Shown: one piece after another, positions 1 through 53,376 of the stretch
Layout of the letters: every line of letters starts with the position of its first letter
Position numbering within the stretch: the first letter of the stretch is position 1
Assembly (NCBI GenBank): GCA_024636785.1
Contig: JAGXGK010000012.1
Span: forward strand, 1-53,425
DNA length: 53,425 bases
Origin: Gammaproteobacteria bacterium
GTDB taxonomy: Bacteria; Pseudomonadota; Gammaproteobacteria; SZUA-229
Direction: 5' to 3'
Position numbers and translations under genes: made by a program
The notes under the pieces: model-generated
The model's database searches: none
The model's input: the letters and a program-made list of their open reading frames with translations, nothing else
Told to the model about the DNA's origin: nothing

Positions 1-23
1 AATTGTGATCTGATCCCGGTTTT
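1..23. repeat. REP-like repeat half-copy at window edge
   Basis: The 23 bases at the edge match the right arm of the repeat pair at 502-524 at 20 of 23 positions. The shared core is AATTGT-ATCTGA-C-CGGTTTT. It overlaps the 3' end of the PGPGW reading frame. Its partner arm, if any, is outside the window. Confidence 0.55.
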
Positions 24-442
24 TCATCCAGAACAAGCGCAGGCTTTCCCCGTCTACGACGAAGATAATTGATCAGCTTCAGTGTGGAACCACGGGACAC
101 AAGCCAACGTTCAAGGCGATACTTGCCGGGAAAATTCATCAGCGCAATTCCCATCATGATCGCCAACAAACCTTGGCCCGGCAATACCAGCATGGCAATT
201 CCGAGCAGCACTAGCACGCCTCCGATCAGGTTCTTAATAACCAACAACAGCCAGGAAAGAGTCGAATCAGGACCAATCCGGTACTGCTTAGACCGTCTCC
301 GGCCCGCAAAGTAATCTTCCGGGATGCGTACCACCAGCCATGGCACCAGCACCAGTCCCGTTAGAAAGCTTACAAGCGAAAAAGCCGCTAGCCAGAAGGA
401 AACGGCCTCATGCGTTCGAATAATTTCAAGCAGGTTTGTCAT
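1..442 (-). CDS. PGPGW-type small transmembrane protein (3' end outside window)
   Basis: Reading the minus strand from the ATG at 442 gives an open frame of 147 codons that runs off the left edge. The N-terminal part has a hydrophobic segment (WLAAFSLVSFLTGLVLVPWL). A second membrane segment follows (IGGVLVLLGIAMLVLPGQGL), then MGIALMNFPGKYRLERWLVS. The LPGQG...FPGK pattern is that of the putative transmembrane PGPGW family, whose biochemical role is unknown. The last visible codons (KPGSDHN) are read from a REP-like repeat also found at 462-524, so the C-terminus has probably been extended into repeat DNA. The true stop lies outside the window. It is downstream of, and on the same strand as, the ParA gene, but the repeat pair separates them. 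Family assignment is moderately sure. Confidence 0.65.
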   Translation of the reverse strand, partial: MTNLLEIIRTHEAVSFWLAAFSLVSFLTGLVLVPWLVVRIPEDYFAGRRRSKQYRIGPDSTLSWLLLVIKNLIGGVLVLLGIAMLVLPGQGLLAIMMGIALMNFPGKYRLERWLVSRGSTLKLINYLRRRRGKPALVLDEKPGSDHN

Positions 443-461
443 ATGGATATTTGGGAAGAAT

Positions 462-524
462 AAAACCGGGTCGGATCACAGTATTCACTAATATTAGACA
501 CAATTGTTATCTGACCTCGGTTTT
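462..524. repeat. REP-like inverted repeat pair
   Basis: The left arm at 462-485 (AAAACCGGGTCGGATCACAG...) is an imperfect inverted copy of the right arm at 502-524 (AATTGTTATCTGACCTCGG...). They are separated by about 16 AT-rich bases. The arrangement can fold into a long hairpin, like REP/BIME elements mobilised by REP-associated tyrosine transposases. No such transposase gene is in the window. It lies between the end of parA and the start of the PGPGW gene and could also act as a transcription stop. Confidence 0.5.
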
Positions 525-535
525 ACCCTAAGACA

Positions 536-1552
536 CTATGTAATTTTGTTAACAATAGCGTCTATGGCATCTAGAGCTTGATTACGATATTCGTTTTTAA
601 CCTGTACCCGACGACCACCTAAGGTTAGTTTACCTGTAGGCATATTGGAGAATGGACAGCCGCGAGCAAATGCAACCACACCTGTTGTGCCAAAGTCACG
701 CACATCAATTGTTGCATTGCTTACGTCATTAAATGTAAAAAATTGTGGATACTGTTTTATTAGTGCGCGCAAGTCTTGGTCTATCCCAATCAACACAGCA
801 TGGTATGCAGACGCTGACCCCATGTACTGAGTTAGGCGATTTTTTAAAATTAGATGGATCTTTGGAAGAGTTCGTCCTGCGTCATTCAACTTTTTAGCGA
901 AAGTGTATTTAGAATAAATTTCTGAAGGTAGCTTCAGTCCATAAATAAGTGAAAATGCGTTTTGTATAGCACGACGAGACGAATCATCAGCCATTACCGG
1001 TAGAACTACACGATCCGAAGCAGCCAAGGCGATCTGGGTATACATTGAAAAGCTTGGGTTTGTATCTATGAAAACATAATCGTATTCAAGTCTTACAAGT
1101 AGCTCACGAAGCCAGTCAATAACCGCAAGCCATGCGTTGACCCCCGGGATATCAGCATTAGCAAGGGTGTTCATTGCTATTGCTTGCAACTCCAGCAAGG
1201 GGTCGCCACAAACTAAGTCAATGTTTCTAGGAATAGACTTGTTAACATCGTAGGGCTTAACTACATAGTCCGTAGCCGTAATGTTTGGGGGTGTAAATGG
1301 TGAGCTCAATCTCAGATCGAAGTAGCCTCCAATACTACTGCGTGGAGTTTTACCCTGACTGGCAAGAAGATTTGTGCTTCCGTCACCCTCTTGGCCTCCC
1401 AGTAATATTTCTGACAGGTTAGCCTGTGGGCACATATCAATAACCAGCGTTTTTTTCGTTGGATTTTGCTGGGCAAACCGCGTAACTGATTGAAATGCAA
1501 GGCTGGTTTTTCCAGTCCCACCTTTATTGTTCCAAATTGAGTATGTAATCAT
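536..1552 (-). CDS. Orphan ParA-family ATPase (Walker-type, AAA_31-like)
   Basis: This is a 338-residue Walker-type ATPase of the ParA/Soj/MinD superfamily, whose members move or position plasmids, chromosomes or protein clusters. A deviant Walker A motif, KGGTGKTS, lies near residues 9-16. A switch-like DMCPQANLSE follows, and a Walker B-like YDYVFIDTNPS is near residue 160. The ATG at 1552 is preferred over an in-frame ATG at 1606 because it has GGAGG five bases upstream, and because the 1606 start would put the palindromic operator at 1584-1604 inside the gene. No parB or centromere-like repeats are adjacent, so a partition role is not shown. It sits immediately downstream of an integron cassette array in the same orientation, and could be a terminal cassette or the flanking chromosome. 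Confidence 0.8.
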   Translation of the reverse strand: MITYSIWNNKGGTGKTSLAFQSVTRFAQQNPTKKTLVIDMCPQANLSEILLGGQEGDGSTNLLASQGKTPRSSIGGYFDLRLSSPFTPPNITATDYVVKPYDVNKSIPRNIDLVCGDPLLELQAIAMNTLANADIPGVNAWLAVIDWLRELLVRLEYDYVFIDTNPSFSMYTQIALAASDRVVLPVMADDSSRRAIQNAFSLIYGLKLPSEIYSKYTFAKKLNDAGRTLPKIHLILKNRLTQYMGSASAYHAVLIGIDQDLRALIKQYPQFFTFNDVSNATIDVRDFGTTGVVAFARGCPFSNMPTGKLTLGGRRVQVKNEYRNQALDAIDAIVNKIT

Positions 1553-1583
1553 ATTATCCTCCAAGAGTCTGTATGAGACAATA

Positions 1584-1604
1584 GCATGTCCAATACGGAC
1601 ATGC
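1584..1604. promoter_or_regulatory. Perfect palindromic operator upstream of parA
   Basis: GCATGTCC-AATAC-GGACATGC is an inverted repeat with 8-bp perfect arms, 32-52 bases upstream of the parA ATG. The 9-mer CAAGAGTCT also occurs directly repeated at 1562-1570 and 1604-1612, framing it. The position suggests binding of a dimeric repressor over the promoter. Autoregulation by the ParA product or control by an unlinked repressor are both possible. Confidence 0.5.
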
Positions 1605-1661
1605 AAGAGTCTAATCTGGACGATTTGGAATTATTTGTATGTGGTTAGCCTAAACATATCG

Positions 1662-1755
1662 AAATAACGCTGCCATAAACGGAGGCAAAAACTACGGAGG
1701 GAGGGAGGAACGAGCGGCGCAGTTTTTGACGTCCGAGTTTATGGCCTTGTTATGC
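1662..1755 (-). other. attC recombination site 1
   Basis: Outer boxes are GCATAAC (R'', minus strand) and GTTATTT (R'). Inner arms GCCATAAAC / GTTTATGGC are perfectly complementary over 9 bp, with a further AAAAACT / AGTTTTT pair. The loop is purine-rich. It follows the gene ending at 1750, whose stop codon lies inside the R'' box. Confidence 0.7.
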
Positions 1756-2451
1756 GAATGATGCAATTTTAATAGATACACTCGATTCTATATTGTTTAT
1801 TACCCAGGTAGGGGCGATCATAAATAGTAGCATTTCAAGCTTGTATGGCTCACTACCTTTCCCAAATATCAAAGGTGCCAACATGCGTATAAGCTGACAA
1901 TATTCGTGGAATGCGACATTGTAAGACCTATACGTGACTTCCTGCTTAGTCAGGCGGAATATTGTTTGCATATCATACTTTGCCAAGCTGGCGCTTCTGC
2001 CAGCAGGCTGTGGAAACAACGACTTTTCATCTGTAAGGTTGAATAGCAACCAGTTCAGTGAGTAGATCACTCTTGAGTCATAAATGACATACTTCTCTGG
2101 CTCTATAAATGATGCGACCTTCGACAATGATGAAATGCAACTGAAAGAGTCCTTTGTTAATCTCTCTTTCGGCAACTCTTGCATGAACTTATTGATGCGT
2201 TTGTCGTTCCTTACATTTTTCTTAAAAGACCCGATTCCTCCCCATTCTTGTATTACCCAATAATGGCTGCTCAAACCCTCATCGTTAGAAATATGCTGAT
2301 GAAAGTTATCTTTCAGGTACACATTCTTTTCATAACCACTAGAAGACGATAAAGGGATTTCTATAGGGCAATTTGAAGGTATCTCCCATTCGAAATCCTC
2401 TAGGTGGACCGATTCAGAAATATGATTCAGTTTTTTAACCAGCTTTTCCAT
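1750..2451 (-). CDS. Cassette-encoded hypothetical protein (233 aa)
   Basis: I do not recognise a family. The product is a soluble-looking protein without a signal peptide or clear membrane segment. It has an aromatic-rich middle (SHYWVIQEWGGIGSFKKN) and a region reading KYVIYDSRVIYSLNWLLFN. The tandem ATGs at 2454 and 2451 are the best starts: AAGAAG lies just upstream, and earlier in-frame ATGs fall inside the attC site at 2469-2543, outside the cassette body. The stop codon overlaps the R'' box of the following attC site. The gene is AT-richer than the core genes from 5 kb onward, consistent with acquisition as a mobile cassette. By its context it could be a host-adaptation or defence gene, but nothing in the sequence shows this. 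Confidence 0.65.
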   Translation of the reverse strand: MEKLVKKLNHISESVHLEDFEWEIPSNCPIEIPLSSSSGYEKNVYLKDNFHQHISNDEGLSSHYWVIQEWGGIGSFKKNVRNDKRINKFMQELPKERLTKDSFSCISSLSKVASFIEPEKYVIYDSRVIYSLNWLLFNLTDEKSLFPQPAGRSASLAKYDMQTIFRLTKQEVTYRSYNVAFHEYCQLIRMLAPLIFGKGSEPYKLEMLLFMIAPTWVINNIESSVSIKIASFA

Positions 2452-2468
2452 CATGTCTTCTTTATTCC

Positions 2469-2543
2469 GCATAACGCCCCACATCAGCGGCAAATTGCGA
2501 AGCGTAGTGCAGCAATTTGTCCGACTGCATGCGATTGTTAGTG
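2469..2543 (-). other. attC recombination site 2
   Basis: Outer boxes are CACTAAC (R'', minus strand) and GTTATGC (R'). Arms around CAAATTGC / GCAATTTG pair perfectly and flank a short loop. Total length is about 75 bp, typical of compact attC sites. Its R' is the exact complement of the R'' of site 1. Confidence 0.7.
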
Positions 2544-2546
2544 GGA

Positions 2547-3020
2547 TTAGTCTGCTGAATGCTCAATAACCTGAAAACCATTCCTGCTCCATTTGTATCG
2601 GGTGTAACTGTAATTTTTTAGCTCTAATACAAGATCGTGTCCGTTATTAGAATTTACTGACTCGACACTAAAGCCCTTAGGTTTATTACCACTAGTTCTT
2701 ATAAATATTGCCTGCGACTGATTGTAAGGCAACTCTCCTGCAAGAAGCACTACGACATACGTCTTGTACCACGGGTCACCAGTAGCATATTCTTCCGTCG
2801 GTTGCACTTCGGTAAGTACTGCTGCCACATCAACTTTTCCATCTCGGTTAAAATCGCCCACTGCAATTTGTGAACATGAATGGTTGTAAGCAGTTAAGCC
2901 CAAAATTGGGAAATGGAATTCGAGGTAGAATTTAAGGTTCTTTTCTCCTGGGCATTCACTGCTTGCTTGGGCTGAATTGATAAGAATCCAAAACAACAGC
3001 ATTGTAAGAAAGACCTTCAT
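2547..3020 (-). CDS. Cassette-encoded exported hypothetical protein (FG-GAP-like motif)
   Basis: This is a 157-residue protein with a classical signal peptide: MKVF, a hydrophobic stretch LTMLLFWILIN, then a probable cleavage near SAQAS. The mature part contains VGDFNRDGKVDVAAVL. This calcium-loop-like DxNxDGxxD pattern is seen in FG-GAP/VCBS repeats and suggests one blade of a beta-propeller-like or calcium-binding fold. Two cysteines (in SSECPGE and YNHSCSQ) could form a disulfide in the periplasm. The gene lies between attC sites 2 and 3 with only a few bases to each, so it is a cassette gene. The ATG at 3020 begins the signal sequence. Function is unknown; location in the periplasm or outside is inferred. 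Confidence 0.7.
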   Translation of the reverse strand: MKVFLTMLLFWILINSAQASSECPGEKNLKFYLEFHFPILGLTAYNHSCSQIAVGDFNRDGKVDVAAVLTEVQPTEEYATGDPWYKTYVVVLLAGELPYNQSQAIFIRTSGNKPKGFSVESVNSNNGHDLVLELKNYSYTRYKWSRNGFQVIEHSAD

Positions 3021-3031
3021 TTCACCTAACT

Positions 3032-3116
3032 AGCTAACGTAAAAATTCAGCGGCGCGCTTTAGCGCGACCGGTGGAGGGCCGAAGCCCCGGAACGAACTG
3101 GAATACCTTGTTAGGT
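3032..3116 (-). other. attC recombination site 3
   Basis: Outer boxes are ACCTAAC (R'', minus strand, at 3110-3116) and GTTAGCT (R', 3032-3038). The body contains internal hairpins (GCGCGC-TTTA-GCGCG and GGGCCGAAGCCC). The R' differs at two positions from the exact complement of site 2's R''. Orientation and position after the 3139 gene match an attC site. Confidence 0.6.
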
Positions 3117-3138
3117 GCGGCCATACCGGCGGGCACAT

Positions 3139-3384
3139 TCAATAAACTCCTGCCGATTCTTCAATGACGAATTGCGCCTTATTTTCTTTGCACCACGTTT
3201 CAAGCTCTTGCTTAAGCGTAGGATACAAGTCTCTCGCCCAAGCGGGAGCCTTTCGCTCCCAAGCTGACTCCGTTGGCAAGTAAGCAGAGAGAATCCCCAT
3301 TGGCAGTTCGAGGATGAATGAGCCGCCTGGGCCCGTTACAACAAGCTCCTCTTTCCATCTTGGCTGAAATCTAAATGTATCCAT
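3139..3384 (-). CDS. Cassette-encoded small hypothetical protein (81 aa)
   Basis: This is a short acidic cytoplasmic protein of unknown function, beginning MDTFRFQPRWKEELVVTGP and rich in Trp and Pro. It has no signal peptide and no recognised catalytic motif. The ATG at 3384 is used; an in-frame GTG at 3396 is possible, but neither has a well spaced ribosome-binding site. Expression of first cassettes usually depends on an upstream integron promoter. The gene is followed 20 bp later by attC site 3, making it the first gene of the visible array. Small proteins of this general kind are common in environmental cassettes, but I cannot name a characterised homologue. Confidence 0.6.
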   Translation of the reverse strand: MDTFRFQPRWKEELVVTGPGGSFILELPMGILSAYLPTESAWERKAPAWARDLYPTLKQELETWCKENKAQFVIEESAGVY

Positions 3385-3589
3385 TCCCGTTGACACTTAA
3401 CAGTGTATTAGACAGAAGATTGGGTTTATTGGGATAGACAGAATTCTATCTGTCCCCTGAAAAACAGGTATATTATAGAAATAATCCACAATGCACCCTC
3501 CCCGATAACCCTGTGCTTTTTTGATATGAAATTGTTTTTTACGCGATTCCATCCTGGAAGGCAAGGTTTCGTTTTTAACCCCCCTGTAC

Positions 3590-4030
3590 AACCTGCCTCA
3601 GTTTTCGACTTTGGTAGCGGCAATTTGCCATGGACGGCGACTAAATTTGACAGGATCAAATTTGAACGCGCGCAGTGCGGCCCGCAGGGAAAACCACATG
3701 GATGTGGTTTGTAATTGAGGCATGCGAGCGGAATTACAAAATACTTCCATGTATTTTGCCCTTCGGGCCAGCCATAAAACGGCTGTTCAATTTCGATCCC
3801 ATCGAAATTAGTGCGAGTCAGACCGACGCGTAGGCAAAGTTGGAAGCTGAGGCTTGCCCGACAGGGCAGGTTGTAAGGGGCGGCCTTTTTCTGGGTACTC
3901 TTTTTTGGCTGTAGAAAAAAGAGTACCACGCCCGTGGGTGCGGGAACCCACTGCCACCAAGCCTACAAATTACTACGAGATTTTGTAATTACGCAAAAGC
4001 CCAAACGTGGATACCGGCCTTCGCCGGTAT
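3590..4030. repeat. Dense array of perfect hairpins, no gene
   Basis: The 684-bp gap 3397-4080 has no convincing gene. From about 3640 it holds a run of perfect inverted repeats. These are AAATTTGA arms (3643-3663), AAACCACAT arms (3691-3710), TTTGTAATT arms (3708-3740) and CAAAATAC arms (3737-3758). Next come GCCC-TTC-GGGC (3758-3768), AATTTCGAT-CCC-ATCGAAATT (3789-3809) and TGCCC arms (3855-3868). The last are 13-bp GGTACTCTTTTTT arms (3894-3927), GTGGGT arms (3934-3951) and ATACCGGC-CTTC-GCCGGTAT (4011-4030). Open frames crossing the block are low-complexity by-products of the repeats. The 4011-4030 hairpin resembles short dispersed hairpins seen between genes in many proteobacteria. The whole may be a composite dispersed repeat or a structured RNA. 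Confidence 0.6.
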
Positions 4031-4080
4031 GACAACTTATATGTCTGCGTGGGAATGACGGACAAGGATAAACCCACACC

Positions 4081-5184
4081 CTACCGTATATTCAAATACT
4101 CCCTCTCCGAAATATCATCCCAGGCAATGACCTGCTTACGAAACTTTGCGTATGATTCATATATCCGTTTTGCCGCTGGATTTTTACCGGCCAGTTCCAG
4201 TACAACTTCGTCGGAGAGGGCTTTTAGTTTTTCCAGTACGTCATCGGGCAGGCGGCGGACGTCGACGTTGTGTTCGTTGATGAGGGTGTCGAGGGCGGCG
4301 TTATTTTTTGCGGTGAATTCGGTGGACATGTCCTGATTAACCACTTTGCAGGCGTACATGACGATGCTCTGTAAATCTTTCGGTAATGATTCCAGCGCTT
4401 CTTTGTTGATGATGGCTTCGAGGGTGGTGCCGGGTTCGTGCCAGCCGGGGTAATAATAATATTTAGCGGCTTTATAAAAACCGAAAGCAAGATCGTTGTA
4501 GGGGCCGACCCATTCGGTGGCGTCGATGGCGCCGGATTTTAACGAGGTGAACAATTCGGCACCGGGCAGGTTTACCGGGGTGCCGCCGGCGCGGCGTAGC
4601 ACTTCGCCACCCAGACCGGGGATGCGCATTTTCAGGCCTTTCAAATCTTCCACGCTGTTGATTTCTTTGTTGAACCAGCCGGCCATTTGCACCATGGTGT
4701 TACCGGCGGCAGCGGGCACGACGCCAAACGGGGCGTAGGTTTCGGTCCACAGTTCCATGCCGCCGCCGTGGTACAACCAGGCGTTCATTTCCTGTGCATT
4801 TAAACCGAACGGTACGGTGGAGAAAAACTGCGCCTCTTCGACTTTGCCTTTCCAGTAGTAGGCGGAGCCGTGGCCCATTTGTGCGGTGCCGCGTGAGACT
4901 GCGTCGAACACTTCCATGGCGGGCACCAGTTCACCGCCGCCGTAGACTTTGATCTTGATGCGCCCGCCGGACATTTCTTCGATGACTTCGGCCAGTTTGT
5001 TGGCGCTGGTGCCGAGGACGGGAAAGTTTTTCGGCCAGGTGGTGACCATTTTCCATTCTATGGCGTCCTTCTCTTCTGCTTTACACTCTATGACGTCCTT
5101 CTCTTCGGCGATGGCGGGTGCGGTAAATGCGCTGGCGGCGACGCTGCCGAGGGCGGCGGTTTTTATAAAGTCACGACGTTTCAT
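4081..5184 (-). CDS. TRAP transporter substrate-binding protein, DctP/TakP-like
   Basis: This is a 367-residue periplasmic solute receptor of tripartite ATP-independent transporters. Residues 1-26 form a Tat signal (MKRRDFIKTAALGS, cleavage near APAIA). The mature chain carries family blocks WKMVTTWPKNFPVLGTSA, FFSTVPFGLNAQEMNAW, RIPGLGGEVLRRAGG and ATEWVGPYNDLAFGF. These place it near the TakP/alpha-keto-acid group, so a small carboxylate ligand is likely but unproven. Just after the signal there is a tandem 10-residue duplication (EEKDVIECKA, then EEKDAIEWKM) from a 30-bp DNA repeat at 5051-5110. No DctQ or DctM membrane subunit is adjacent, so it is an orphan receptor that must pair with an unlinked transporter. 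It lies 68 bp downstream of uvrD on the same strand and next to the repeat-rich accessory end. Confidence 0.9.
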   Translation of the reverse strand: MKRRDFIKTAALGSVAASAFTAPAIAEEKDVIECKAEEKDAIEWKMVTTWPKNFPVLGTSANKLAEVIEEMSGGRIKIKVYGGGELVPAMEVFDAVSRGTAQMGHGSAYYWKGKVEEAQFFSTVPFGLNAQEMNAWLYHGGGMELWTETYAPFGVVPAAAGNTMVQMAGWFNKEINSVEDLKGLKMRIPGLGGEVLRRAGGTPVNLPGAELFTSLKSGAIDATEWVGPYNDLAFGFYKAAKYYYYPGWHEPGTTLEAIINKEALESLPKDLQSIVMYACKVVNQDMSTEFTAKNNAALDTLINEHNVDVRRLPDDVLEKLKALSDEVVLELAGKNPAAKRIYESYAKFRKQVIAWDDISEREYLNIR

Positions 5185-5252
5185 GTTTTTTCCTTTTTGT
5201 ATTCACCACAGATATGGCATAGAAAATTTTAATATTTTTGAATCTTTATTTA

Positions 5253-7481
5253 TCAGGCTGGTTGCAGGTTGGCGTAACTCATCACCAGCCACTTGCTGCC
5301 TTTGTATTCGAAATTTACTTCAACCCGTGCGTGTGCGCCACTGCCTTCTAGATTGATGATGATGCCTTCGCCAAACTTGCCGTGCGTTACGCGCTGGCCG
5401 ATGCGCAGGCCATTGATCGATTCGGTTTCTTTCGAGGCCATCGCCGAGGGTGAATACAGCGGCTGGCTGATGGTGGGTTTGGCGCGCACTTCGGTGAGCA
5501 GATGCTGAGGGATTTCGCTGATGAAGCGCGAGGGTTCAGGGTATAGATCCTGTCCGTAGAGGCGTCGATGTTCGGCGCAGGTCATCACCAGTTTCTGGCG
5601 CGCGCGGGTGATGCCGACGTAACACAGCCGACGCTCTTCTTCGAGCTTGCCCTCTTCTTCCAGCGAGCGCTGGCTGGGGAACAGCCCCTCTTCCAGCCCG
5701 ACCAGAAACACCAGTGGAAACTCCAGACCTTTGGCGCTGTGCAGGGTCATCATCTGCACGCAGTCCTGCCAGGCATCGCCCTGACTTTCGCCCGCTTCGA
5801 GAGCGGCGTGGGTGAGAAAGGCGGTGAGTTCGTCCATGCCGGCCAGCTCTTCGGCGTTGGCATCAAACTCGAATCCCCGACCGGCGCTGATCAGCTCTTC
5901 AAGGTTTTCCACCTTGGCCTCGGCCTTTTCAGTTTTCTCCTTGCCGTAATGGGCGATTAAACCGCTGTGGTGAATGACGTGATCGATGCGCTCGAACAGC
6001 GGCAGCGATTCGGTATCGGCCGCCATGGTGTCGATCAGGGTCATGAATCCGCTCAGTGCATTGGCGGCGCGGGCGGTGAGTGCGTTTGTGTCGATCAGGC
6101 TTTGCGCCGCCTGCCACAGGGCCACGTCCTGATCGCGGGCGATTTCGCGAATGCGTTCGACGGTGCGATCACCGATGCCGCGCGTGGGCGTGTTCACCAC
6201 CCGTTCGAACGAGGCCATGTCGTTGCGGTTGTTGATCAGGCGCAGGTAGGCCAGCGCATCCTTGATTTCGGCGCGGTCGAAATAGCGCAGACCACCGTAG
6301 ACCCGATAGGGAATGCCTTCGCTGACAAAGCGTTCCTCGAACACGCGTGACTGTGCGTTGGAGCGGTAGAGAATGGCGATGTCCGAGCGCGCCCCGCCCT
6401 GTTCGATCCACTGTTTGATGTGGTCGAGAACATAGCGGGCTTCGTCATATTCGTGGAAGGCCCGGTAATAAAGGATGGGTTCGCCATCTTCGCCGCTGCT
6501 CCAGAGTTTTTTGCCCAGGCGGCCGCTGTTGTTGTCGATGATGGCGTTGGCCGCCGACAGGATGGTGGTAGTGGAGCGGTAGTTCTGTTCCAGACGCACG
6601 ATGTCGGTGGTCTGGAAGTGTTTCTGGAACAGCTGGATGTTTTCCACACGCGCGCCGCGCCAGCCGTAAATGGCCTGGTCGTCATCGCCGACGATGAAGA
6701 CGTGGTTTTTGCTACCCGCCAGCAAGCGGATGAGGGCGTACTGGATGGTGTTGGTATCCTGAAACTCGTCGACCAGGATGTGGCGGAAACGCTGCTGATA
6801 ATGCTGCTGCAGAATGGGGTTATCACGCACCAGTTCCAGGGTGCGCAGCAGCAGTTCGGCAAAGTCGACCGCACCGGCTTTTTCGCAGGCCGCTTCGTAA
6901 GCGCTGTAGATGCGCACGAGTTGCACGTACAGCGGGTTGCGTCCAGTGTCGATATGTTTGGGTCGCAGGCCTTCGTCCTTGCGGGCATTGATGAAGGCCT
7001 GCGCCTGTTTGGGCGGCCATTTGGCTTCGTCCAGACTCAGGCCTTTGAGGATGCGGCGGATCATGCGGTACTGGTCATCGGAATCGAGAATCTGGAAGGC
7101 CTGCGGCAATCCGGCCTCCTGCCAGTGCGAGCGCAGGAAGCGGTGCGCCAGTCCATGGAAGGTGCCCACCCACATGCCGGAGAGCGGAATGCCCTGGAGT
7201 TTCTCCACGCGCTTGCGCATTTCTGCGGCTGCCTTGTTGGTAAAGGTCACTGCGAAAATGTTGTAGGCAGAGATGTTTTCCACCTGATTCAGCCAGGCGA
7301 TGCGGTGCACCAGCACGCGGGTTTTACCGCTGCCCGCCCCCGCCAGCACCAGCACGTGACCCGGCGCAACCGTGACCGCTTCGCGTTGCGCGGCGTTCAG
7401 CCCGTCGAGAATATGTGACACGTCGGTGCTGTCGCACCGGATAAAGTCTGAAGGCATAACACCGCTATCGACTTCACTCAT
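5253..7481 (-). CDS. uvrD: DNA helicase II UvrD (SF1A, 3'-5')
   Basis: At 742 residues this is close to the usual length of about 720. The enzyme unwinds DNA 3' to 5' in nucleotide-excision and mismatch repair and clears RecA filaments. Walker A AGAGSGKT is at residues 47-54, preceded by the Q-motif LNAAQREAV. VDEFQDTN (Walker B), GDDDQAIYGWRGA and QNYRST follow, as do TLHSAKGLEFPLVFLVGLEE and VGITRARQKL. The C-terminal tail ends in the UvrD Tudor-like domain (GQRVTHGKFGEGIIINLEG). The start at 7481 has GGGGA upstream; an ATG eight codons later is an alternative. It ends a minus-strand run with the ubi genes, 59 bp after ubiB. Confidence 0.97.
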   Translation of the reverse strand: MSEVDSGVMPSDFIRCDSTDVSHILDGLNAAQREAVTVAPGHVLVLAGAGSGKTRVLVHRIAWLNQVENISAYNIFAVTFTNKAAAEMRKRVEKLQGIPLSGMWVGTFHGLAHRFLRSHWQEAGLPQAFQILDSDDQYRMIRRILKGLSLDEAKWPPKQAQAFINARKDEGLRPKHIDTGRNPLYVQLVRIYSAYEAACEKAGAVDFAELLLRTLELVRDNPILQQHYQQRFRHILVDEFQDTNTIQYALIRLLAGSKNHVFIVGDDDQAIYGWRGARVENIQLFQKHFQTTDIVRLEQNYRSTTTILSAANAIIDNNSGRLGKKLWSSGEDGEPILYYRAFHEYDEARYVLDHIKQWIEQGGARSDIAILYRSNAQSRVFEERFVSEGIPYRVYGGLRYFDRAEIKDALAYLRLINNRNDMASFERVVNTPTRGIGDRTVERIREIARDQDVALWQAAQSLIDTNALTARAANALSGFMTLIDTMAADTESLPLFERIDHVIHHSGLIAHYGKEKTEKAEAKVENLEELISAGRGFEFDANAEELAGMDELTAFLTHAALEAGESQGDAWQDCVQMMTLHSAKGLEFPLVFLVGLEEGLFPSQRSLEEEGKLEEERRLCYVGITRARQKLVMTCAEHRRLYGQDLYPEPSRFISEIPQHLLTEVRAKPTISQPLYSPSAMASKETESINGLRIGQRVTHGKFGEGIIINLEGSGAHARVEVNFEYKGSKWLVMSYANLQPA

Positions 7482-13017: not shown

Positions 13018-13935
13018 CTACTTACGTGATCTCGGGTGGGCTTTGTCGTAAACCCCGGCCAGATGCTGGAAATCCAGGTGGGTGTAGATTTGCGTGGTGG
13101 TGAGGTTGGCGTGGCCCAGCAGCTCCTGCACTGCGCGCAGGTCGCCGGATGATTCCAGAATGTGCGAGGCGAATGAGTGCCTCAGCATGTGAGGGTAGGC
13201 ATTGCCGTTGAGGCCCTGTTTCAGCGCCCGGTTTTTAAGCCGCTGCTGCACGTTACGATTGCCGATGCGCAGACCGTTTTTGCTCAGAAACAGCGCTGCC
13301 TGCTCGTGCTTGAGGAACTGTGTCCGCGCTGTCATCCAGGTATTCAGGGCTTCCAGGGCTTTTTTGCCGAAGGGAACGCGCCGCTGTTTGTTGCCCTTGC
13401 CCATCACGGTCAGAACCTGCTGCTGCCAGTCGATATCCGCCAGATTCAGCCCGGTCAGCTCGGACAGGCGCAGGCCACAGCCATACAGCAACTCCATCAT
13501 GGCGTGGTCGCGGTGCGCCAACGGGTCATCATCGGGCTGCGCCAGCAGGCGGTTGAGCTGATCGACCCCAAGCGTTTCGGGCAGGCGTTTGGGCGATTTG
13601 GGCGCGGGGATACCCACCGCCGGGTTGTTTTTCAACCCATAGTGGCGGCGCAGATAGTTAAACAGGGTTCGAACCGCGGACAGCCGTCGCTGCAAACTTC
13701 GACCGGAGAGCCCCTTTCGGTGCTGGCTGGCGACAAACTGCCGGATCAATGCTTCGTCAATCTCTGCCCAGTCAGTCTGAAACTGCTGCACGCAATAAAC
13801 GGTGAAGGCCTTGATATCGCGCTGATAGGCCGAGAGGGTGTGGCTGGAATACTTGCGTTCGGATTCAAGATAGATGAAAAACCGTTCTAACGGCAGAGTC
13901 CATTCTGATGGTGCCGTATGCTCTGCCGACGGCAT
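13018..13935 (-). CDS. xerC: Tyrosine recombinase XerC
   Basis: XerC resolves chromosome dimers at dif together with XerD. The 305-residue protein has an N-terminal SAM-like core-binding domain (about 12-100) and the catalytic domain. All catalytic residues are visible: R156 (GCGLRLSEL), K180, H249 and R252 (HMLRHSF), H275 ([12 protein letters not shown]) and the nucleophile Y284. Its place directly after DUF484 and dapF is the conserved gammaproteobacterial setting and distinguishes it from XerD and from phage or integron integrases. Three bases separate it from the DUF484 stop, so translation is probably coupled. Confidence 0.96.
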
Positions 13936-25656: not shown

Positions 25657-26706
25657 TTAGGGTTTCGGTTTTTTAATTCCCATGGCACTCAAGGCATCAT
25701 CAGAATATTCAAAGGAATCGGAATAAATCTGAGTTTCAGGCAGACCTTTCGCATAAAAGGCCTCCATACCCGATTTAACCATCGGCGGCGGGCCGCTTAA
25801 ATAGATATCGTAACCGCACAGGTCGGGATACTCTTCCACCACGGCCTCGTGCACATAGCCGACTTTACCCTGCCAGTTGTCATTCTCATCCGGGTTGGAC
25901 AGCACCGGGGTATATTTCAGGTTGTCGTGCTCTTCCTCCCATGCTCTAACCATTACCTCCATATACAGATCACGTTTGGCGCGCACCCCGCAGAACAGGT
26001 GGATCGGTTTTTTGAAGCCGATTTTGAAGGCGTGTTCGAGCATGCCCTTCAAAGGCGCAAAACCGGTTCCTCCGCCCACCAGTATGACCGGGCGATCGGA
26101 CTCTTCTCGTAGATAGTAACAGCCGTGCGGCCCTTCGATTCGGAGCAGGGTTTTTTCCTTCATCTCGCTGAATACATAATCGCTGAATTGGCCGTCCGGT
26201 ACATGGCGAATATGCAGCTCAATCAAGTCGTCGTCGTGCGGGGCGTTTGCAATGGAGAATGCACGGCGTTTGCCGTCCTTGAGGATAATTTCCAGATACT
26301 GCCCGGCCAGAAACTGCATACGCTCGTTTTCCGGCAACTTTAGCTCCACTTTCATGACGTCATGGCTCAGCAGTTCCATGTTTTCAACACGACATGGCAG
26401 GGTTTTAACTTCAACTTCCTGAGCGCGGGTGATCTCCGTGACCTCTATTTCCAGATCTGAACAGGCTCTGGCCTGACAAAAAAGAGTCTTACCCTGATCG
26501 TAAAGTTGTCTGGCAGCGTCCTTCAACGCACTCTTTTCATACTGTACTTCTCCGGAGCGGAGATTACCGACGCATTTACCACAGGCGCCATTGCGACAGC
26601 CGTAAGGCAGACCAACCCCCTGTCTCAGCGCAGCATCCAGTATGGTCTCATCTTCTTCAACGCTAAACTCGTGCCCGGAAGCGGGGACTGAAACGTGGTA
26701 GCTCAT
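25657..26706 (-). CDS. 2Fe-2S ferredoxin / FAD-NAD(P)H reductase (AscD-like)
   Basis: This is a 349-residue electron-transfer protein. An N-terminal plant-type [2Fe-2S] domain has ligands C37, C42, C45 and C77 (GCRNGACGKCVG, LFCQARA). A ferredoxin-reductase module follows: the FAD site is in GKRRAFSIANAP and the NAD(P) site is VGGGTGFAPLKGMLEHA, with the C-terminal YLSGPPPMVKSGMEAF. The family is annotated as CDP-6-deoxy-delta-3,4-glucoseen reductase-like and is often found near ubiD, as in this window. It probably supplies electrons to an oxygenase or reductase. Divergent from the glutaredoxin gene. Confidence 0.9.
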   Translation of the reverse strand: MSYHVSVPASGHEFSVEEDETILDAALRQGVGLPYGCRNGACGKCVGNLRSGEVQYEKSALKDAARQLYDQGKTLFCQARACSDLEIEVTEITRAQEVEVKTLPCRVENMELLSHDVMKVELKLPENERMQFLAGQYLEIILKDGKRRAFSIANAPHDDDLIELHIRHVPDGQFSDYVFSEMKEKTLLRIEGPHGCYYLREESDRPVILVGGGTGFAPLKGMLEHAFKIGFKKPIHLFCGVRAKRDLYMEVMVRAWEEEHDNLKYTPVLSNPDENDNWQGKVGYVHEAVVEEYPDLCGYDIYLSGPPPMVKSGMEAFYAKGLPETQIYSDSFEYSDDALSAMGIKKPKP

Positions 26707-26837
26707 GTAAAATTATTGTCCAATTGGTCTAAATGAAAAAGCGTCTCATTCTACTTTTTTTAACTGATAAAAGAAAACTCTTAATCTTTTTGTTTAATAT
26801 ACTCTCTATTTTAACCACTTATACGGAAATGCATTGC

Positions 26838-29797: not shown

Positions 29798-32224
<2,427 letters not shown>

Positions 32225-32241
32225 TTATCAACAAAGGGTCA

Positions 32242-33321
32242 TTATATCAGGTCTTTGAGCTGACCTTGTTCCACGTGGAACATTTTTTTAGTCTCCCACC
32301 CTGACAGGTCAATCTGCTCCGCTTCAATCGCTGTTAAAAACAGCTGTATTTTCATTTTAACCAGCACTGCCAGTATTTCCCGGCGATGCCTGGCGTCCAG
32401 TTCCGCCGCAAGGTCGTCATACAGAAGAATGCAGCTGCGACCGGTACTTTCAGTAAAATGCTGTGCCTGGGCGAGGCGCAGCAGTGCAACCAATGTCTTT
32501 TGTTGCCCGCGTGAGATACCGGTCTGTGCCGACTGGCCGTCAACCCTGATTAATAGCTCTGCCCGATGCGGACCGTACTGGGTAAACCCTCTCATGCGAT
32601 CTCTGTACAACTCTGATTTAAACAGAACCTTCAGATCACTCTCTTCCGACCACCCTCGTTTATAACTAAGCTCCACATCCTGATCTTTAAAAAACCGCTG
32701 GATCAACGCCTGCAGATAGGGATAAAGCGCATTCATGTAACCATCGCGCATCTGATCAATTCGAACAGCCATGTCGACAAGCTCATGATCCCATAATGCA
32801 CAGTATTCATTATTCTGCTTTGACTTCAGCGCTGCATTGCGTTGTTGCAGTGCTTTTTTATAGCGTTGCCATATAGCAAAAAAGTTATGTTCCACGTGGA
32901 ACACTCCCCAGTCCAGATATTGCCTTCTGTAAGAAGGTCCTCCGGTAATGAGTTTATAGCTGTCAGGATGAATAGCGATGACCGGAAACAGTGCTGCAAT
33001 GTCGGCGACTCTTTTTACCGGCTGATGATTGGCGCGCACTTCCAGTTTGTTGCGGCTACGCAATATTCCCAGAGGTATCTGATGATGAGAATTAGTGTGA
33101 ATTTTAGCCACCAGCTGTAGTTGAGTGGCCTGTCGATTTATGAGATCAGTAATCTGGTGTGTTCTGAACGAACGCAGATGACTGAGATAGTAAATAGCTT
33201 CAAGTAAACTGGTTTTACCCGAAGCATTAAGTCCTGTTATAAGATTGACGCCAGCTACCGGTTCGAAATCAACTTTAGCCAAATTTCGAAAATACTGGAT
33301 CTGCAACCGCATTAAATGCAT
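32242..33321 (-). CDS. recF: DNA replication/repair protein RecF
   Basis: RecF loads RecA at gaps as part of RecFOR. It is an SMC-like ATPase of 359 residues. Walker A is LITGLNASGKTSLLEAIYYL, the ABC-type signature is GISRGQQKTLVALLRLAQ, and Walker B is ILLYDDLAAELDARHR. The N-terminal LQIQYFRNLAKVDFEP is typical. Placed between dnaN and gyrB in the conserved dnaA-dnaN-recF-gyrB order. Confidence 0.98.
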   Translation of the reverse strand: MHLMRLQIQYFRNLAKVDFEPVAGVNLITGLNASGKTSLLEAIYYLSHLRSFRTHQITDLINRQATQLQLVAKIHTNSHHQIPLGILRSRNKLEVRANHQPVKRVADIAALFPVIAIHPDSYKLITGGPSYRRQYLDWGVFHVEHNFFAIWQRYKKALQQRNAALKSKQNNEYCALWDHELVDMAVRIDQMRDGYMNALYPYLQALIQRFFKDQDVELSYKRGWSEESDLKVLFKSELYRDRMRGFTQYGPHRAELLIRVDGQSAQTGISRGQQKTLVALLRLAQAQHFTESTGRSCILLYDDLAAELDARHRREILAVLVKMKIQLFLTAIEAEQIDLSGWETKKMFHVEQGQLKDLI

Positions 33322-33347
33322 AACAGTCCTTTATAGATCCGTTATAA

Positions 33348-34448
33348 CTAAAGTCGCATTGGCATGATGACGTATTTACAATCGCCTAGATCGGGATAGC
33401 TCAGCAGACAACTACTGTTTGAGTCTCTCAGTGTTAGCTGTACCATGTTTGAATTGGCCGCATTGAGGGCATCGATCATGTAGTTGACGTTAAAGCCAAT
33501 CTCCAGGGCTTCGCCTTTGTAATTGACCTCCAGATCAACATCCGCCTCTTCCTGATCCGGGTTGTGCGCCTGCAGACGCACCAGATTATCTTCCAGAATC
33601 AATCGGATACCCCGATATTTTTCATTGGATAGGATAGAGGCGCGAATCAGAGCCTGTTTAAGGGTTTCGCGCTCGGCTGTCATTACAGAATGGCCATCAT
33701 CGGGAATTACACGGTTATAGTCCGGGAAACGGCCATCGATCAACTTGGAAGTAAAGCGAAGATTGTTAAGCTCAACCCGCAGGTGATTGCTACTCAGAAT
33801 TATTTTTACCTTATCGTCGGTGTATTCGAGCAATCGTGCCAATTCAATGACCCCTTTGCGGGGCAGGATAACCTGTTTGATTTCAGCCAGTTCACAGTCG
33901 GTCTCTTTTTCACAAAAAGCCAGGCGGTGACCATCAGTGGCGACAGCTCTGAGTACTTTGGAGCCCACTTCCAGCATCAGGCCATTCAAATAATAACGCA
34001 CATCCTGCTGAGCCATGGCAAAAGCGGTTTTATCGATAATATCCTTCAGGATTCTCTGTGGTAACTCAAAGCTAGAATTAGAGCTGATTTCATCCAGGGA
34101 GGGGAAATCACTCGCCGGCAGGGTAACTAGTGAGAAACGGCTGCGCCCTGATTGAATCATGGCTTTATCACCTTTAAGGCTGAAATTTACCTGCGAATCT
34201 ACCGGCAGTGATTTACATATATCCAGCATTTTTCTGGCTGGAACAGTAATTTCACCCGGTTCGTCAATAATCATGTCCATCTGCGTAAGAAATTCGATTT
34301 CCAGATCAGTAGCAGTGAGTGACAGAGAATTCTGATCAGCTTTGATAAGTACATTGGATAATGCTGGCATCGTCTGCCGTTTCTCAACTGCACCGATTAT
34401 CTGCTGCAATGAATTAAGCAGGTTGTCCCTTTGAATTTGAAATTTCAT
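33348..34448 (-). CDS. dnaN: DNA polymerase III beta sliding clamp
   Basis: This is the 366-residue processivity clamp that encircles DNA as a dimer and tethers polymerase and repair proteins. It begins MKFQIQRDNLLNSLQQIIGA and ends CKYVIMPMRL, the canonical C-terminus that forms part of the protein-binding cleft. Three repeated clamp domains follow the expected spacing. It lies downstream of dnaA across a 241-bp spacer with DnaA boxes, so it may have its own DnaA-regulated promoter, and 26 bp before recF. Confidence 0.99.
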   Translation of the reverse strand: MKFQIQRDNLLNSLQQIIGAVEKRQTMPALSNVLIKADQNSLSLTATDLEIEFLTQMDMIIDEPGEITVPARKMLDICKSLPVDSQVNFSLKGDKAMIQSGRSRFSLVTLPASDFPSLDEISSNSSFELPQRILKDIIDKTAFAMAQQDVRYYLNGLMLEVGSKVLRAVATDGHRLAFCEKETDCELAEIKQVILPRKGVIELARLLEYTDDKVKIILSSNHLRVELNNLRFTSKLIDGRFPDYNRVIPDDGHSVMTAERETLKQALIRASILSNEKYRGIRLILEDNLVRLQAHNPDQEEADVDLEVNYKGEALEIGFNVNYMIDALNAANSNMVQLTLRDSNSSCLLSYPDLGDCKYVIMPMRL

Positions 34449-34689
34449 GGTGTGGCCTTAATTAGTATTAGTTCTTTTATTTATATACTTATTGTTATTA
34501 TAAGTCTCGCTCAATATCAGGGATAACTCTGACATATACTTATATTTCAACAAGATGCGAAATATATTTAGCAATATTGACGGGGGTTATTCTACCCTTA
34601 TCCTGTAGATGAAATGTGGATAACTTTATCCTCTGATTTCCTCTACATGTTACACCCCAGCTGATAACAAGTTTATCCACAGCTTATTA
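34449..34689. other. Candidate oriC / DnaA-box region between dnaA and dnaN
   Basis: This 241-bp spacer has two perfect DnaA boxes (TTATCCACA on the plus strand at 34673-34681, and its complement TGTGGATAA at 34615-34623). Two weaker ones are TTATCCTGT at 34598 and TTATCCTCT at 34626. The stretch 34460-34580 is very AT-rich and could be the unwinding element. The switch in gene direction around dnaA supports an origin here or in the companion spacer 36049-36260. Which spacer fires cannot be told from sequence alone. Confidence 0.6.
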
Positions 34690-36048
34690 TCAGTTACTCA
34701 GGATGCGCATCATATTAGTGTAATCTTCGCTTATCTTCGCGTCAGAGTCTCTAAGTTCGGCTATCTTCCGGCAACCGTGTAATATTGTTGTATGATCCCG
34801 ACCCCCAAAGGCAGCACCGATTTCAGGCAGACTGTGATTGGTCAGCTCTTTGGCCAGAGCCATCGCCAGCTGTCGAGGTCGGGTAATGGAACGACTACGG
34901 CGACTGGATAACAGGTCGGAACTGCGAATTTTGTAATATTCAGCCACCGTCTTCTGAATATTTTCGATGCTGATAGCCCGGTCCTGAATCGCAATCAGGT
35001 CGCGCAGAGCATCTTTAGCCAGATCAAGCGTAATCGCACACTTGGTGAAATTGGCCGTGGCCATGACCCGGCGAAACGCTCCTTCCAGCTCGCGAATGTT
35101 TGAGCGGATGCGTTTGGCAATAAAAAAAGCCACTTCGCTGGGAAATTTGAGTTTATATTCCTCGGCCTTTTTCTGCAAAATGGCCACGCGTGTTTCCAGC
35201 TCGGGTGGTTCGATGCACACCGGCAAACCCCAGCCAAAGCGGGAGCGCAGGCGCTCTTCAAGCCCTTCGACCTCTTTCGGATAGCGATCGCAGGTTAAAA
35301 TAATCTGGCTACCCGATTCGAGCAAGGCATTGAAAGTATGGAAAAACTCCTCCTGAGAACGCTCTTTGCCGGCAAAAAACTGGATATCATCGATCAGCAG
35401 CGCATCCAGAGAGCGATAGTGCTGCTTGAATTCATCAATAGCGTTATGTTGCAAGGCCTTGACCATATTGCCGACAAAACGCTCCGAATGCAGGTAGACG
35501 ATACGGGCATCGGGGTTGTTTTGCAGCATCATATTGCCAATGGCATGGATAAGATGGGTTTTACCCAGACCAACGCCGCCATACATGAAAAGCGGGTTGT
35601 ATGCATGACCGGGGTTGTCCGCGATCTGTATCGATGCGGCCTTGGCCAGCTGGTTGGATTTACCCTCGACAAAACTGTCAAAGGTAAATGCCGGGTTGAG
35701 ATTGTGTTCGATAGGGTGCTGATTGCTACTGGAAAGCTTCTGTGGTTCGAAAATACGCGGTTGAGCCATTGTCGGAACCGCAGTAAGAGCGGCTTTCGCA
35801 GGTTTGGCCTGTGAACCAATCTCAAAATTAAGCGCCACCTCGGCAGCGCCTATTTCCACAAGAATGGTCTGAATCTGTTCCTGAAAATTCTGTTTAACCC
35901 AGTCAAGCACAAAACGATTGGGCGCCAGTAAAGTGATGGCACCCGCCTCTTCCTTAATTTGAAGCGGCCGTATCCAGGTATTTAACTGCTGATCAGAGAG
36001 TTTCTGCTCGAGTTGCTGTAAACAGTTTGGCCAAAAAACAACGCTCAA
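34690..36048 (-). CDS. dnaA: Chromosomal replication initiator DnaA
   Basis: DnaA binds oriC and melts it to start replication. The 452-residue protein has domain I ([20 protein letters not shown]) and a variable linker (about 78-110). The AAA+ domain III has Walker A GGVGLGKT (157-164) and Walker [14 protein letters not shown]. Domain IV carries the DNA-binding signature [16 protein letters not shown]. No ATG fits. TTG at 36048 yields the standard [10 protein letters not shown] start, with GGAG 11 bases upstream, so translation probably starts weakly at TTG, which is common for this dosage-sensitive gene. A DnaA box lies 74 bp upstream, consistent with autoregulation. Confidence 0.97.
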
Positions 36049-52518: not shown

Positions 52519-53376
52519 TTAAATCGTTTTTATAACGACAGATGAATACTGGCTCTCACGGCCGTCTGTGTCGTAGGTTGTGACAACGAAATAATAAGTG
52601 CCGGTTGGCAGGTCAGTGAAGATATAACTGACTGCGGTGCCATCGGCGATGTTAACCGTATTAGGGTACTGACCTAGCTCGCTGCCATAGTAGACGTTGT
52701 AGCCGGCGATTGCCGATAGTAATATTGGCGTGTTGTCTTCGCGTTCGCTGGGAGCAGTCCAGGCAAGGCTGATAAGAATGGTGTTGTCGGGTTCTACAGG
52801 GTCAGTGATAGTGGTAGGTGAGTCCGGTTCTACAGGGTCAGTGATAGTGGTAGGCGAGTCCGGTTCTATAGGGTCAGTGACAATGGGCGCGCTCGTATCA
52901 TCAGTTCCGTTGATATTAATCACCAGTGTATGTTCTGTACCGTCAATACTGTTGATGGTTATGTGTTCGCTCAATGATGCGCCGCTGTCCAGATTCTGGA
53001 TCACGGCCTGGTCGTTGTCAGCGCTATAGATCCAGATTCCATCAGCGCTTATGGTAAGACTGCCATAGGCACCTTCAATTGAAATTGCGACAAAGGCATC
53101 TTCTGCGGCATCGATTTCTGTAATCGTCAATGTTCCGCCGACCTTCAACAGGTTGTCACCATCCACATCAATGTCTTCGGTAACGCTACCGCTATCAACG
53201 CCGGTGATTACGGCGGCATGGTTAACGTCAGTTATACCTGGAGGGTATGGCTCGACGAGATACGCCGTGCTGGATTTAGAGGACTCGCCGGTGCTGCATG
53301 CCGATATTTGCAGGGTGATGAATAAAAACAGCAGTATTGATGTAAAACGGGTGTTCGCCAGGTGTGAGATTTTCAT
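52519..53376 (-). CDS. Lipoprotein with VCBS-like domain, repeat linker and fibronectin type III domain
   Basis: This is a 285-residue surface or periplasmic lipoprotein. A signal peptide ends in the lipobox ISAC (acylated cysteine near residue 27). A VCBS/cadherin-like beta-sandwich (about 60-160; EDIDVDGDNLLKVGGTLTI, IWIYSADNDQAVIQNLDSG) follows. A Pro/Thr/Asp linker has tandem 12-residue units (TITDPVEPDSPT), encoded by 36-bp DNA repeats at 52790-52880. The C-terminal fibronectin type III domain (ISLAWTAPSEREDNTPILLS, then GTYYFVVTTYDTDGRES) completes it. The build suggests an adhesive or scaffold role. The linker copy number probably varies between strains. No partner genes are visible at the window edge; 53377-53425 holds nothing recognisable. 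Confidence 0.85.
   Translation of the reverse strand: MKISHLANTRFTSILLFLFITLQISACSTGESSKSSTAYLVEPYPPGITDVNHAAVITGVDSGSVTEDIDVDGDNLLKVGGTLTITEIDAAEDAFVAISIEGAYGSLTISADGIWIYSADNDQAVIQNLDSGASLSEHITINSIDGTEHTLVININGTDDTSAPIVTDPIEPDSPTTITDPVEPDSPTTITDPVEPDNTILISLAWTAPSEREDNTPILLSAIAGYNVYYGSELGQYPNTVNIADGTAVSYIFTDLPTGTYYFVVTTYDTDGRESQYSSVVIKTI

Follow-up and report, generated by a model that had tools for sequence, protein, structure and literature searches.

The window analyzed here is an entire contig (C6, 53,425 bases) from the draft genome of an uncultured gammaproteobacterium of the SZUA-229 lineage (1.94 Mb in 53 contigs; completeness, 72.6%), and near its left end lies an array in which three attC sites alternate with small genes. 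The array is made up of the following features, the attC scores being those of the covariance models R1 and R2 described below.

1662 to 1755, minus strand: attC1, the distal site; R'' GCATAAC, R' GTTATTT; 17.0 bits (R1), 23.4 bits (R2)
1750 to 2475, minus strand: cassette 1 gene, an open reading frame (ORF) of up to 241 amino acids (aa)
2469 to 2543, minus strand: attC2; R'' CACTAAC, R' GTTATGC; 17.2 bits (R1), 24.1 bits (R2)
2547 to 3020, minus strand: cassette 2 gene, 157 aa, with a weak FG-GAP motif
3032 to 3116, minus strand: attC3, the proximal-most attC; R'' ACCTAAC, R' GTTAGCT; 18.2 bits (R1), 25.9 bits (R2)
3139 to 3396, minus strand: cassette 3 gene, an ORF of 85 aa
3396 to 3402, minus strand: proposed proximal core GTTAAGT, the boundary of cassette 3; 6/7 complementary to the R'' of attC3 and not attI-like

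This array is very probably a cluster of attC sites lacking integron integrases (CALIN), whose three cassettes share one orientation, carry genuine attC sites, and sit in the chromosome where neither attI nor intI is present. It contains at least two clustered attC sites, and no integron integrase adjoins it as far as the contig reaches; the intI and attI that a complete integron would carry beside its array are both on another contig, C2.

Neither covariance model was trained on any attC site from the genome under study. R1 was built from nine sites: two class 1 integron plasmids supplied five of them and a cyanobacterial plasmid one, and the other three are located beside intI in relatives. 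Its alignment (A4) retained 9 of 17 collected sites (16 in alignment A1 and one more in A2); the eight that were dropped were long-loop or misaligned sites, and in the earlier MAFFT alignments (A1 to A3) L'' was misaligned in some rows. The nine retained sites support the attC structure, with 92% of cells paired (25 to 42% when slid) and two-sided changes in 10 of 16 pairs. R2 was built from 80 sites of relatives, recruited with R1 at an E value of ≤0.001.

Both models ranked exactly these three sites first at positions 1 to 6000, and the original prediction of three attC sites in one orientation holds. Across positions 1 to 6000, with filters off, R1 gave the sites 17.0 to 18.2 bits (E values, 0.0017 to 0.004) and the fourth match 9.0 bits; in the same region, R2 gave them 23.4 to 25.9 bits and the runner-up 5.4 bits. 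When the whole 53-kb window was searched, they were the sole R2 matches at an E value of ≤5 (0.00026 to 0.0012), and R1 with default filters reported only attC3 and attC1. A first heuristic scan had recovered attC1 and attC3, missed attC2, and returned two false matches in the window; an Rfam scan of positions 1 to 6000 gave no match at an E value of ≤1 and is uninformative for these sites.

The three sites, all on the minus strand and within 1.5 kb, have R''/R' and L''/L' boxes with an AAC...GTT core. Upon excision, the start of a cassette is expected to complement its own R'' box. On the cassette strand, the R'' of attC1 (GCATAAC) and the R' of attC2 (GTTATGC), which belong to cassette 1, are complementary at 7/7 positions, exactly as predicted; agreement falls to 6/7 positions in cassette 3 (ACCTAAC with GTTAAGT from the proximal junction) and to 5/7 in cassette 2 (GTTAGCT and CACTAAC). 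Exact complementarity had been taken to define a true cassette: it does support one, but it is found in one of the three cassettes and is not defining by itself. Single-strand folding, another check suggested, gave a mixed outcome. The bottom strand of attC1 forms an end-to-end canonical hairpin whose 3' arm bears two extrahelical bases (z score, −3.9; 0/200 shuffles as stable). In attC2, the L stem is formed and two bases protrude singly from its 3' arm as extrahelical bases, with the R boxes unpaired (z score, −1.5; 18/200). The minimum-energy fold of attC3 is noncanonical (z score, −2.1; 6/200). Three attC sites from intI-linked arrays, folded for comparison, had z scores of −2.6 to −5.6.

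No intI was present in the window on the proximal side of the array, as had been predicted; the window's only matches to IntI models were weak, below-cut-off matches to a resident tyrosine recombinase (13018 to 13935), approximately 9.6 kb from the array. The description of an array without an integrase, which is the known CALIN category, is correct locally but not for the genome: the recommended search for intI elsewhere found a full-length IntI of 328 aa at C2:43672-44613, which scored 427 bits and was the only one in the genome above the TIGR02249 cut-off (265 bits). This protein is 45% identical to IntI1; the tyrosine-recombinase catalytic residues R144, H275, R278, H301, and Y310 are aligned in register, and it contains an IntI-type insert (LPDALSRKYSRA). 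Its closest named relatives are from metagenome-assembled genomes of uncultured Gammaproteobacteria at five of seven loci, the other two (Spirochaetes and Balneolales) being distant. The attI site on C2 (GGTGTCCTATTAACAA-GTTATAC, at C2:44909) was recognized through its likeness to a genome of the same genus, G043, and the two have in common the stretch GG[TC]GTCCTAT[TC]A[AG]CAAGTTA upstream of intI (two sequences only). From the start of intI to the end of C2 there are 413 bp, and the reading frame still open where the contig stops would belong to the first cassette. Because a full-length IntI is encoded on this other contig, the window array could be served in trans. Between intI and attI on C2 (positions 2550 to 2712 of locus L001), about four imperfect repeats of TTAAATATCGAAATA were observed by eye; it is possible that they are regulatory or IntI-binding sites.

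The array is flanked on its two sides by the following features.

3582 to 5184, no strand assigned: native right flank, with a dispersed repeat (3560 to 3960) and a gene for a tripartite ATP-independent periplasmic (TRAP)-type substrate-binding protein (4081 to 5184, minus strand); syntenic in the nearest relative, G041
536 to 1555, minus strand: lone ParA-family ATPase gene, just past the last attC; AAA_31 match with an E value of 5e-18

G041 matches the window in pieces at 3582 to 3955 and then from 4080 onward, after which the sequences diverge; this right-flank synteny and its break set the edge of the insertion somewhere in the interval 3116 to 3582. To the right of the TRAP gene, the chromosome runs on to uvrD. 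Relatives were surveyed in a family sample of 54 genomes (53 without the genome under study) and a class sample of 369 (368 without it). The TRAP substrate-binding gene was found in 46/54 family genomes at an E value of ≤1e-90, and the gene content beyond it varies among the four same-genus genomes examined. Twenty TRAP loci of relatives were fetched and 19 were scanned, L091 having no downstream sequence and L089 and L105 offering just ~1.2 and ~2.5 kb of it; none of the 19 had an attC match with R1 or R2. On the array's own proximal side, no attI was found at 3380 to 3700, no IntI match was found at the junction, and the likeness of the flank to the genome's own attI was no better than that of shuffled sequence.

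Other attC sites occur in this genome and in its relatives. A second CALIN, of three R2 matches, occupies C53:10834-14282; it is 10.8 kb away from the end of its contig, and the genes on either side of it are housekeeping-like, one resembling purC and the other gltB (named by eye from their translations). Lone R2 matches are located at C2 18853 to 18914 and C16 203269 to 203328. C17 also carries a single attC-like site, worn in appearance (26677 to 26746; L119, 1501 to 1570; R1, 18.7 bits; R2, a weak 14.5 bits), which lies between SulP-like and ClC-like transporter genes, identified by eye, and adjoins an 87-aa ORF. In the family sample, 29/54 genomes encode an IntI above the cut-off, and 36/54 have attC matches at an E value of ≤0.5 (R1). 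We conclude that arrays break metagenome assemblies in this family, because the array side of intI lies within 1.5 kb of a contig end in 16 of the 20 relatives' contigs fetched, two of them with a truncated intI; several attC clusters in relatives also abut contig ends.

Three other explanations of the window array were considered. The array may be the remnant of a complete integron whose intI and attI were deleted at this spot, a possible but less likely account. The dispersed repeat, which lies beside both the array and the C2 intI, is a possible substrate for such a deletion; however, with 35 matches on 18 contigs, its place here is not special, the junction retains neither an attI nor an IntI match, and attC sites were seen in 0/19 relatives' loci with downstream sequence. 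Since no trace of attI or intI remains and the right flank is native, we lean toward an origin by IntI-mediated insertion at a non-attI site rather than by integron decay. It is improbable that the array is a part of the main integron that was split off by assembly and belongs beside the intI on C2. That intI does start 413 bp from a contig end, the intI contigs of relatives mostly end close by on the array side, the attC clusters of several relatives are at contig ends, and the authors of IntegronFinder 2.0 (PMC9024848) state that CALIN counts are inflated by draft genomes. However, the cassettes read from right to left, so that the proximal side is the right side, where the chromosome common with G041 starts by 3582; no attI was found at the junction, and for the array to belong behind the C2 attI it would have to be inverted or misassembled. 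That the sites are stem-loops arising by chance among small ORFs, with no integron involved, is scarcely credible: two of the three free folds are indeed noncanonical, but the sites are the top three in two models, on the same strand, with one-gene spacing, at least 8 bits above the next match, and with box complementarity of 7/7, 6/7, and 5/7.

Several observations nevertheless weigh against the array being a CALIN of genuine sites inserted at this spot. The genome-wide R2 E values are merely 0.0097 (attC3) and 0.043 (attC1), and attC2 was not listed in the genome-wide scans with R1 or R2. The window scores are modest beside those of relatives' sites, which reach 25.3 to 66.6 bits with R1 in a list limited to E values of ≤0.001. 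Because the unconstrained folds of attC2 and attC3 are not canonical, these two sites may be worn. No empty site was found, as this spot varies and relatives lack ParA; finally, with the contig ending 1.66 kb to the left of attC1, the array might extend past contig position 1.

For the CALIN that we favor, we infer the route of insertion, the present mobility, and the expression of the cassette genes. Probably, the IntI still encoded elsewhere in the genome inserted circular cassettes one by one, the first going into a non-attI chromosomal site and the later ones into the attC of the first. At present the array would serve as a passive store, in which IntI acting in trans might still excise or rearrange cassettes at times when the enzyme is produced and the bottom strand of attC becomes single-stranded.

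The array had been placed about 33 kb from dnaA and close to oriC. We measured approximately 31 kb to dnaA (34690 to 36048; dnaN, 33348 to 34448; both assigned by eye, on the basis of the translations and the order of the genes), but this nearness need not mean anything: a second cluster and lone attC sites exist elsewhere in the genome. By eye, the minus strand at 29798 to 36048 carries gyrB, recF, dnaN, and dnaA, followed on the plus strand by yidD, yidC, and mnmE, and the GC skew, mixed closer to the array, is for the most part negative between 34 and ~10 kb. Based on these gene strands and the skew, forks should travel leftwards through the array, and the bottom strand of attC, being the plus strand, should therefore serve as the leading-strand template. 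Sedentary integrons are reported to prefer this orientation (PMC11023631); the fit of one array to a two-way choice is weak evidence. A broader scheme, in which the family's resident IntI habitually seeds cassettes at scattered non-attI spots to form a distributed store, with the near-oriC cluster (bottom strand as leading-strand template) as its high-copy, recombination-damped member, appears less likely than not.

The dispersed element at 3560 to 3960 is rich in inverted repeats and has 35 partial matches on 18 contigs, some at contig ends; it also adjoins the TRAP gene in G041 and intI on C2. As a marker of integron loci, it was dropped because of these 35 matches on 18 contigs. To the left of attC1, the ParA protein is 59 to 62% identical to orphan ParA proteins on plasmids of Cryobacterium, Xanthomonas, and Pantoea and on 5.9-kb Salmonella plasmids, and it was not found in the 53 other family genomes. 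Its status as a fourth cassette is unsupported: beyond this gene the window has no R2 match to attC, nor was an attC matched in the four fetched plasmid loci that carry ParA relatives (L172 to L175). A small membrane-protein gene (2 to 442) lies on the same side, flanked by a repetitive extragenic palindrome (REP)-like direct repeat of ~24 bases at 1 to 25 and 502 to 525 (AATTGTGATCTGATCCCGGTTTT and AATTGTTATCTGACCTCGGTTTT, by eye). The attC1 flank (ATATCGAAATAA) has, by eye, a likeness over ~12 bases to the repeats upstream of intI on C2; short-word BLAST of both array flanks against intI upstream regions gave nothing at an E value of ≤1. At the far end of the window, a lipoprotein-like ORF (52519 to 53376, minus strand) has an N terminus like those of ORFs that neighbor TRAP in G041 (L087, 4784 to 5566) and G044 (L090, reverse complement, 4284 to 5030), which suggests, from sequence likeness, that it may belong to a repeated or mobile gene family.

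The genes between the sites had been called uncharacterized, and this description stands: none of the three proteins matched a family in Pfam, NCBIfam, PADLOC, or PHROGs at a meaningful threshold, and the profile searches found no resistance gene family among them. The first ATG of the cassette 1 gene falls within the R' box of attC2; translation more likely starts at an ATG near 2457. Its protein had no Pfam match at an E value of ≤1, no PADLOC or PDB match, no homologue in the 368 other class genomes, and no match among the phages searched; one plasmid protein matches at 28% identity, and the predicted structure has a predicted local distance difference test (pLDDT) score of 32. The cassette 2 protein has an N terminus that resembles a signal peptide by eye and an FG-GAP match (E value, 0.0016) short of the curated cut-off; its single-sequence structure model, of low confidence (pLDDT, 61), is mainly strands. 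One marginal match (E value, 0.0069) was found in the 53 other family genomes and none among plasmids. The cassette 3 protein had no homologue in the 368 other class genomes; it has two Paraburkholderia plasmid relatives (46 to 48% identity), near which no attC was matched. Neither the cassette 1 nor the cassette 3 protein matched the viral contigs searched. The three genes are further examples from the large pool of uncharacterized cassette genes.

With this array, a CALIN is on record for a gammaproteobacterial family that has been little studied and in which IntI and attC are common, and as arrays break assemblies there, an integrase missing from one window is not necessarily missing from the genome. 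With the arrays of class 1 integrons (LC623901.1 and NZ_CP139498.1) it shares the attC architecture of R'', L'', L', and R' boxes; unlike them, it has no adjoining intI or attI and no resistance gene family among its cassette genes. Loot and colleagues reportedly described, in 2024, the insertion of cassettes at chromosomal attG sites (cited in PMC12901181 and PMC12444791), and an insertion of that kind would account for the non-attI proximal edge. The published CALIN survey likewise describes clusters of at least two attC sites with no integrase beside them, in draft genomes; they average almost 6 sites, compared with three here, and otherwise nothing essential differs. A close parallel is provided by Xanthomonas, where CALINs occupy chromosomal loci apart from the ilvD/intI locus (PMC12444791). 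Like those, the window array is chromosomal and away from the intI locus; theirs are fairly conserved in position across species, whereas the window array was not found at the corresponding position in the 19 loci of relatives. Clusters without an integrase have been described before, and the window array, which leaves the understanding of integrons unchanged, adds one in an ordinary chromosomal place in an uncultured gammaproteobacterium.
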